A stretch of 21,487 bases of DNA from a virus, in IMG/VR virus record IMGVR_UViG_3300031669_000272, positions 1 through 21,487 of that record, one strand, 5' to 3'. The position numbers and the translations under genes are program-made. This document shows, piece by piece, positions 13,483-14,472 of the stretch; the stretch's first letter is position 1; every line of letters starts with the position of its first letter. The notes beneath the pieces are model-generated. The model saw nothing but the letters and a program-made list of their open reading frames with translations, was not told the DNA's origin and ran no database searches.

Positions 13483-13492
13483 ATTTTTATAG

Positions 13493-13515
13493 TTTGCATA
13501 CTATAAGTATGCAAA
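13493..13515. repeat. 23-base palindrome between two tRNAs
   Basis: TTTGCATACT, three bases, AGTATGCAAA: perfect 10-bp inverted repeat around centre 13504. It could be an operator half-site pair or a processing hairpin. It lacks a downstream T-run, so it is not an obvious terminator. Confidence 0.6.
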
Positions 13516-13538
13516 TTATCTATTAATTAAACTAATTA

Positions 13539-13612
13539 CGCGGATACAGGCAAGGTGTCTGCTGCGCTTTGGAAGCGTGGTGGGGGTGGTTCGATTCCAC
13601 CATCCGCGACCA
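13539..13612 (+). tRNA. tRNA-Pro (UGG anticodon)
   Basis: Acceptor CGCGGAT (13539-13545) pairs perfectly with ATCCGCG; the C1-G72 pair is typical of Pro tRNAs. Anticodon stem TGCGC/GCGTG (two wobble pairs), loop TTTGGAA with TGG at 13570-13572, T-arm GGTGG-TTCGATT-CCACC, encoded CCA at 13610-13612. Only one base separates acceptor and D-stem, slightly odd. Immediately followed by the structured non-coding region. Confidence 0.85.
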
Positions 13613-13613
13613 A

Positions 13614-13708
13614 TCACCCGGGAGAACCCAGTTTAAGGTGCAACCTACCCATTAGAATTCGCACTCCGATGGGGTCTGGCAGATACCCGGGTCGAGTCAC
13701 CCGGGAGA
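13614..13708 (+). repeat. TCACCCGGGAGA direct repeat (two copies)
   Basis: The same 12 bases occur at 13614-13625 and 13697-13708, and a related TCACCCGAGA at 13851-13860. The second copy overlaps the outer helix of the structured RNA, so the first copy could compete for the partner GGTCTCCCGG. Sequence between the copies (13626-13696) folds into further small hairpins. Confidence 0.5.
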
Positions 13709-13986
13709 CCGGGTTATCAAGTCTGTCTATAAACGGTGACTAAGACAGAGGGGGTAGCCTCTCAAAACCCATGGGTAATCTGAAGCTGCTGCGACCGAAA
13801 AACAAAGGACACCGCGACTTACACCTTGAGAGTAAGGTGGCCGGCAGGGATCACCCGAGATCATCCATATGGTCATTAGGGTCTGCCAATGGAATAGGCT
13901 TATAAGATACGATGGAGCACCGTGGACCATAGATGTACTGGGATGAAGCGGCCCAGGATACAACATAAGCTGAATAGGTCTCCCGG
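13701..13986 (+). ncRNA. Candidate large structured non-coding RNA downstream of tRNA-Pro
   Basis: Outer helix: CCGGGAGACC (13701-13710) pairs GGTCTCCCGG (13977-13986), 10 perfect base pairs enclosing 266 bases. Inside: hairpin 13722-13728/13743-13749 (7 bp), CACCTT/AAGGTG at 13822-13827/13834-13839, and an 11-bp helix with a 2-base bulge, 13862-13874/13925-13935. CTGGG/CCCAG lies at 13938-13942/13952-13956. ACGGTG (13733-13738), in the first hairpin loop, can pair CACCGT (13918-13923), which would be a pseudoknot. The surrounding 13613-14085 has no supported gene. Position after tRNA genes in a phage recalls large ornate RNAs such as GOLLD or ROOL; this is a hypothesis only. Group I intron, tmRNA and RNase P cores were not matched. 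Confidence 0.55.
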
Positions 13987-14011
13987 TTTATGGACAAGGA
14001 TTTGAAGCCTT

Positions 14012-14040
14012 GGGCCGGGGGGCTCTTTCCAATTTATTTT
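14012..14040 (+). terminator. Weak intrinsic-terminator-like hairpin
   Basis: GGGCC-GGGG-GGCTC can form a 5-bp stem at 14012-14025, followed by TTTCC and then an interrupted T-rich stretch to 14040. It would end the transcript carrying the tRNAs and structured RNA. The stem is short and the T-run interrupted, so the call is weak. Confidence 0.3.
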
Positions 14041-14085
14041 TGACCCATATTTATATGCGTTTTTAGTTCAAAAAGGTTATTTAAA

Positions 14086-14472
14086 ATGAGCCCAGAGAAG
14101 ACCGAAAAACTGTTTAATCGATATCCGATGCTTTACCGAGGTAAGGATGAAGGGATACAGAAGAATCTAATGGTGTTCGGTTTTGAGTGCGGTGATGGAT
14201 GGTTCGATCTGATTGACGAGCTGTCCCGTCAGATATGTGAGCTGTCCCCAATGACCAAGGCTTTTCAGGTCAAGGAAAAGTATGGTACATTGCGTTTCTA
14301 TGTTGGTGTAGCAGACCCTTCGACATCGAGCGTTGTCTTTGATATAATTGATGATTTCGAAGAATGCTCCGAAAAGATATGCGAAGAATGCGGTGCTCCC
14401 GGCAAGTCCCGGGGTATTATCGCTGGTAGCAATGGGTGGATCAAAACCTTATGTGACGAGTGTGCTAAATGA
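14086..14472 (+). CDS. Phage Zn-finger hypothetical protein (FGFECGDGW family)
   Basis: 128 aa, ATG preceded by AAAAAGG. FGFECGDGWFDLIDELSRQI (31-50) and QVKEKYGTLRFYV (61-73) are well conserved in many phage hypothetical proteins. The C-terminus holds two CxxC pairs (KICEECGAPGKSRG and TLCDECAK), giving a likely zinc ribbon. The family is common, but I know of no established function. It overlaps the one-TM protein by ATGA. Confidence 0.85.
   Translation: MSPEKTEKLFNRYPMLYRGKDEGIQKNLMVFGFECGDGWFDLIDELSRQICELSPMTKAFQVKEKYGTLRFYVGVADPSTSSVVFDIIDDFEECSEKICEECGAPGKSRGIIAGSNGWIKTLCDECAK

Follow-up and report, generated by a model that had tools for sequence, protein, structure and literature searches.

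What kind of RNA, if any, is encoded in the gene-free stretch that follows tRNA-Pro in this phage? The window, meaning the whole 21,487-nt stretch of DNA analysed here (one strand of IMG/VR virus record IMGVR_UViG_3300031669_000272), carries tRNA-Met, tRNA-Pro and tRNA-Glu as detected by ARAGORN. The ca. 470 nt after tRNA-Pro had been described as lacking a supported gene and this holds, with 13613-14085 containing short open reading frames only on either strand. The original prediction assigned this stretch to a single structured RNA of 300-450 nt. A structured non-coding RNA is present beside the phage tRNAs, contains a pseudoknot and matches no known family; it is smaller than proposed and folded otherwise.

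A conserved 144-nt unit downstream of tRNA-Pro

The folding stability of the 428 nt at 13613-14040 was ordinary (z -1.15, with 14 of 100 shuffles as stable; opposite strand z -1.82), and cmscan of the window with the whole Rfam 15 family set returned nothing but tRNAs at gathering score, and the matches at E values up to 10 were no better than chance. Fold energy and Rfam searches alone are insufficient to claim a structured RNA, and support came from comparison with relatives. Related phages were collected via terminase and portal scans of IMG/VR and two of them, L003 and L134, carry the RNA. The L134 copy, like that of the window, lies downstream of tRNA-Pro, and the copies in L135 and L136 are identical to it. 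L003 contains a 30-nt block that is 90% identical to the window (27 of 30 letters; local alignment 7 standard deviations above shuffles), and the sub-domain CTCTCAAAACCCATGGGTAATCTGAA of the inserted hairpin is common to both. The unit is thus conserved, with the coordinates of its parts given in Table 1, and the differences between the window, L134 and L003 in stem 1, the inserted hairpin, the tail and stem 2 are compensatory. In the tail, both strands change between the window and L134 and the loop GAGAGT is kept; in stem 2, CGGTG/CACCG of the window is replaced by CGGTA/TACCG in L003.

Table 1. Position and support of tRNA-Pro, the RNA unit and its parts in the window.
Feature	Position	Strand	Support
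tRNA-Pro	13539-13612	+	ARAGORN; just upstream of unit
Whole RNA unit (5' hairpin, pseudoknot, tail hairpin)	13696-13839	+	L134 alignment z 15 (13696-13818); model R1 match 13696-13839; held-out model R2 match 13715-13838, E 5.6e-4
5' hairpin ACCCGG-GAGA-CCGGGT	13699-13714	+	L134 counterpart ACCCGT-TAGA-GCGGGT
Pseudoknot stem 1, TCTGTCT (13722-13728)/AGACAGA (13743-13749)	13722-13749	+	L134: TAAGTCT/AGACTTA (two compensatory changes)
Pseudoknot stem 2, 5' strand CGGTG within loop AAACGGTG	13734-13738	+	L003: CGGTA with TACCG
Hairpin inserted in pseudoknot loop 3, GTAGC (13754-13758)/GCTGC (13785-13789)	13754-13789	+	L134: GGCG/CGCC
A-rich loop 3 strand TGCGACCGAAAAACAAA	13790-13806	+	identical in L134
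Pseudoknot stem 2, 3' strand CACCG	13810-13814	+	kept in relatives
Tail hairpin CACCTT-GAGAGT-AAGGTG	13822-13839	+	L134: AGCGGG-GAGAGT-CCCGCT; family stem covariation

Two helices had been predicted from the window alone with exact coordinates, namely stem 1 and the stem of the tail hairpin (13822-13827/13834-13839), and both are kept in relatives with compensatory changes. A pseudoknot had also been proposed for the loop strand ACGGTG. This strand does form one, only with a different partner: CACCG at 13810-13814, which is conserved in relatives, and not CACCGT at 13918. The 10-bp helix 13701-13710/13977-13986, which was to close the whole RNA, exists as letters. Its length is matched in 5 of 300 shuffles, not far above chance, and no counterpart was found in the relatives. 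Further, it competes with the 5' hairpin at 13699-13714, which is kept in L134 and would be destroyed by the long-range pairing.

A large ornate RNA of ca. 300-450 nt of the GOLLD/ROOL type would suit the position beside tRNAs, the ca. 470 nt of gene-free DNA and the 10-bp long-range complement. Still, neither GOLLD nor ROOL is returned by all of Rfam 15 in cmscan even at E values up to 10, global stability is ordinary, the long helix conflicts with a conserved hairpin and homologues are restricted to 13696-13839, so that such an RNA is highly improbable here. No homologue was found for the flanks (13613-13695 and 13842-14030) by alignment to the relatives, and the two other helices proposed, 13862/13925 and 13938/13952, fall within this part of the sequence. 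In place of the large RNA, the results support a small, modular RNA from a family without annotation, a finding that is more general than what was first claimed. Group I intron, tmRNA and tRNA-like readings, considered by eye, were dropped as they had no Rfam support.

Two further features of this region were noted. A long AT-rich palindrome occupies 13489-13519 in the interval between tRNA-Met and tRNA-Pro. The sequence TCACCCG(GG)AGA opens three successive stretches of the window at 13613, 13696 and 13850, the 18-nt copies being 72-78% alike.

The RNA is dispensable in some relatives, since the sister phages L137 and L161 are cleanly without the unit. In L134 the unit is flanked by ACATTTA on both sides, only one ACATTTA is present at the corresponding site of L137, and a promoter-like block common to both precedes the unit site. 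The direct repeats could be read as the trace of a mobile element. This reading was considered, and a putative gain or loss of the unit through the ACATTTA linker is preferred because the linker also follows tRNA-Pro of L134 and a second RNA. The latter is a structured non-coding unit with 95% identity between L134 (3591-3724) and L137 (5773-5907), an outer helix GCGGAT/ATCCGC, ACATTT boundaries and no Rfam match. The conserved promoter-like block (TTTGCACC ... TGGTATTATGGTTT; L134 3419-3468, L137 5734-5783) lies directly before RNA units. Contig IMGVR_UViG_3300028840_004913, which holds L136 and L137, is a 103-kb record in which this phage group is represented by two portal genes, with the RNA in one region only, and may be joined or chimeric. 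Other routes to homologues yielded little: the RNA was absent from relatives of the neighbouring gene at 14086-14469, an exact 21-mer of the 5' hairpin had no match, and two motif patterns returned only the already known L003 and chance matches.

An unannotated RNA family and its tail hairpin

The pattern AAACGGTG...CACCGYGAC...AGAG was found at 18 places in viral contigs. Beyond the L134 copies and chance matches, these gave ten clear members (L188, L191, L192, L194, L195, L197, L198, L199, L201 and L202). In the family fold, the loop of a first hairpin pairs with downstream sequence to form an H-type pseudoknot; UGAC comes next, and then a short hairpin whose conserved loop is of the GARAGA type. 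In the window unit, the UGAC position reads CGAC. Stem 1 is formed by GGTC/GACC, GGAT/ATCC or GTGT/ACAC in other members. The common tail comprises UGAC, one base, a 5-bp stem and GARAGA closed by the second strand of the stem, with a different spacing in L197. The conserved unit measures ca. 120-145 nt, and members also occur far from tRNAs, heading phage operons. Searching the window, L003, L134 and eleven further loci with Rfam 15 gave tRNA or chance matches only and no family above the gathering threshold; the family, which recurs in many unrelated phages, is unnamed, unannotated and without an Rfam model.

Covariation was assessed for the tail stem in the ten members, which had been picked by their motif without regard to pairing. 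Each of the 50 cells is paired, and the covariation value was 0.68 versus 0.12, a level reached in 0 of 500 shuffles; slid controls gave at most 0.14. With 22 members, a set partly picked by pairing, the values were 0.62 versus 0.12. A descriptor scan detected 34 tails versus none in reversed sequence, and a looser tail pattern 24 versus 4 over 34 records. A covariance model built from the ten members, with the window and its closest relative L134 left out, recovered both L134 (E 4e-9) and the window (Table 1); the same model did not recover L003. Based on these results, we regard both the existence of the family and the proposed fold as very likely.

A 35-nt tail query in blastn matched 35 phage records, mostly in unannotated intergenic DNA, and some low-scoring matches inside genes are probably due to chance. 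The hosts of these phages include Escherichia, Klebsiella, Cronobacter, Pseudomonas, Stenotrophomonas, Acinetobacter, Phaeobacter and cyanobacteria. In bacterial genomes, one pattern had no match and a second matched six places, none of which was scored by the family model. No match to the family was found in plasmids.

Support for the pseudoknot across the family is more uneven. Best pseudoknot scores exceeded dinucleotide shuffles in 24 members (Fisher p 3e-4) and random TGAC sites in 35 members (p 0.002), both being partly circular, as some members were fetched by a pattern containing both pseudoknot strands. L003 and the tail-found phages are independent of this pattern. Among them, L003 (CGGTA/TACCG) and Cruim01 (CGCTGC/GCAGCG, p 0.01) are independent cases, and pairings in mEp390 (AGTTC/GAACT), Pokken (ACTGG/CCAGT) and Medea1 (TGGCG/CGCCG) are suggestive. 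CS01, P7641 and two BUCT708 copies yielded no pseudoknot. The pseudoknot is firm for the AAACGGTG branch, window included. Because it was not found or is only suggestive in several members, the tail hairpin is the surest mark of the family.

Genomic positions and candidate functions

Placement of the RNA is recurrent. In six temperate phages (mEp390, Medea1, Cruim01, P7641, BUCT708 and L201) it lies between the repressor, of CI or helix-turn-helix type, and the early-left operon. DNA near the mEp390 leader, which spans ca. 27442-27812 on the reverse strand of JQ182729, is found in 31 of 5426 E. coli genomes, always on the chromosome. In Cronobacter phages the RNA precedes the terminase genes; in Pokken, Mwe-JY26, MD18 and L194 it lies inside or beside tRNA arrays, and in L202 beside tmRNA. 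Two phages have it ending 24-36 nt before the DNA polymerase gene, one T7-like phage (Autographiviridae) being among those with mid-operon or pre-DNA-polymerase copies, and in Alexa it sits between converging operons with no gene downstream in its direction. Some phages hold one copy and others several, and the BUCT708 leader has at least five tail hairpins in a row. No protein except the repressor is common to the neighbourhoods of five or more members, and terminators close downstream of members were not consistent, leaving that scan neutral.

Other conserved elements were seen in the same surroundings. The phage-borne tmRNA gene of L202 (3455-3718) follows the family member directly. The early leaders of L211, L215 and L193 have a long inverted segment in common (GCATCGGAGTGTGAT ... 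ATCACACCCCGATGC), seemingly another conserved leader RNA. Those of L209, L213 and L224 contain further conserved segments, namely AGCGGGTAGCCGGAATGTGCAAG and an outer helix ACAAC...GTTGT around GCGCA/TGCGC, which are common to E. coli, Klebsiella and Stenotrophomonas phages.

By analogy with the put RNA of phage HK022, we propose that the window unit may act as a nascent-RNA antiterminator. The RNA would fold while leaving RNA polymerase and remain on the elongating enzyme, which could then read through pauses and terminators in the downstream operon or in an untranslated tRNA/RNA array. Here, we infer that the unit is transcribed, binds polymerase and prevents termination, and we put the probability of the whole reading at a little more than one in three. 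It was judged the most likely because topology, loop motif and temperate slot match put, no protein but the repressor is shared by five or more neighbourhoods and none of the first early genes tested is a known antiterminator. Against it stand the lack of sequence kinship to put, the Alexa copy with nothing to read into, the mid-operon and pre-DNA-polymerase copies and the lack of consistent downstream terminators.

The main rival, next after the put-like reading and rather unlikely in our estimate, is a stable trans-acting small RNA that would be cut from polycistronic transcripts like the adjoining tRNAs and bind a host protein or RNA such as polymerase, ribosome, a nuclease or a defence factor. 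Many members lie in or beside tRNA arrays or tmRNA (window, L134, L194, L202, Pokken, Mwe-JY26 and MD18), and the L134 unit, just as the tRNA next to it, has ACATTTA linkers at its borders. The variable genome location, with usually one or two neighbouring copies, and the Alexa copy upstream of no gene in its direction also suit this explanation. It accounts poorly for the one identical leader slot in six temperate phages, for the lack of a terminator consistently following the unit and for the successive tails in some leaders, as in BUCT708, which suit a cis-acting array better. If it were nonetheless trans-acting and stable, the family would represent a common phage RNA with a host target. 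Under either reading, it could explain the long, seemingly empty leaders of many phage genomes.

The position before the DNA polymerase gene in two phages would be in line with a cis-acting mRNA leader element controlling translation or stability of the next gene. As downstream genes differ everywhere and tRNAs rather than a gene follow many copies, this is quite improbable.

A site resembling lambda nut is likewise improbable. Here, the 5-bp hairpin with its GNRA-like loop would be recognised by an antiterminator protein of the phage or by Nus factors of the host. Lambda boxB is a 5-bp hairpin with a purine pentaloop, and the family resembles nut in its early-left leader position, the 5-bp hairpin and the purine loop; a 5-bp stem of variable, covarying letters with a constant purine loop is the usual form of a protein-binding hairpin. 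However, the upstream pseudoknot is foreign to nut sites, the GARAGA loop differs from the boxB pentaloop and no shared N-like gene was found near members. PHROGs searches on the early genes of five temperate phages detected no antiterminator and no N-like gene, a weak result given that N proteins diverge fast.

Comparison with known phage RNAs

T4 stable RNAs C and D, encoded in its tRNA cluster, resemble the unit in size range and tRNA-array location. GOLLD and ROOL, too, are intricately folded RNAs of phages or prophages that are frequently encoded close to tRNA islands. Their lengths are several hundred nt for ROOL and, in many cases, more than 800 nt for GOLLD (PMC12286853). The unit differs from both in having ca. 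144 conserved nt instead of several hundred nt with long-range structure, and their Rfam models do not match it.

To our knowledge, no phage RNA other than put renders RNA polymerase resistant to termination unaided by a protein. Antitermination by put runs via the zinc-binding domain of the beta' subunit. In putL, bases 3-7 pair with 15-19 and 9-14 with 30-35 (PMC9378689; structure PDB 7XUE). These published pairs cross and form a pseudoknot followed by a hairpin; this is our own reading, the word not being used in PMC9378689. We located putL in the HK022 record (L217; 27 of 27 published letters), with stem 1 AGACG/CGTCT, loop AACGGCG, a loop 3 of 10-11 nt and CGTCGG, followed by stem II. Although its structure is solved, putL has no Rfam family.

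The two are distinct at the sequence level. HK022 has neither the UGAC/GARAGA tail nor a match to the family model. A blastn search with putL found put-bearing phages, with no examined member phage among the 25 records listed, 7 low-scoring ones lying beyond that listing; mEp390, which has the new RNA in the putL slot, is not among them. Stem II of putL is much longer than the family tail stem and has internal mismatches. HK022 carries one put per early operon, compared with one to several family copies per phage, and the family, unlike put, extends to lytic phages, to tRNA arrays and to positions in the middle of operons. Temperate members occupy the HK022 putL slot in the interval between repressor and early-left operon; the window and other lytic members do not.

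The likeness lies in architecture. In the family as in put, a hairpin loop pairs downstream, ca. 10 nt of loop 3 run along stem 1 and a hairpin follows at once. The loop motif AACGG is common to the family and HK022 putL and, as for put, no protein partner was found near members. We tentatively consider that the family could form a widespread second class of RNA-only antiterminators, unrelated to put in sequence, that would protect early and late operons as well as tRNA arrays in both lytic and temperate phages infecting several groups of bacteria. As a compact element of ca. 50-145 nt, often located at sites that phages use for signals keeping RNA polymerase running, and far more widely spread than put, it may represent a new kind of RNA-only transcription control.
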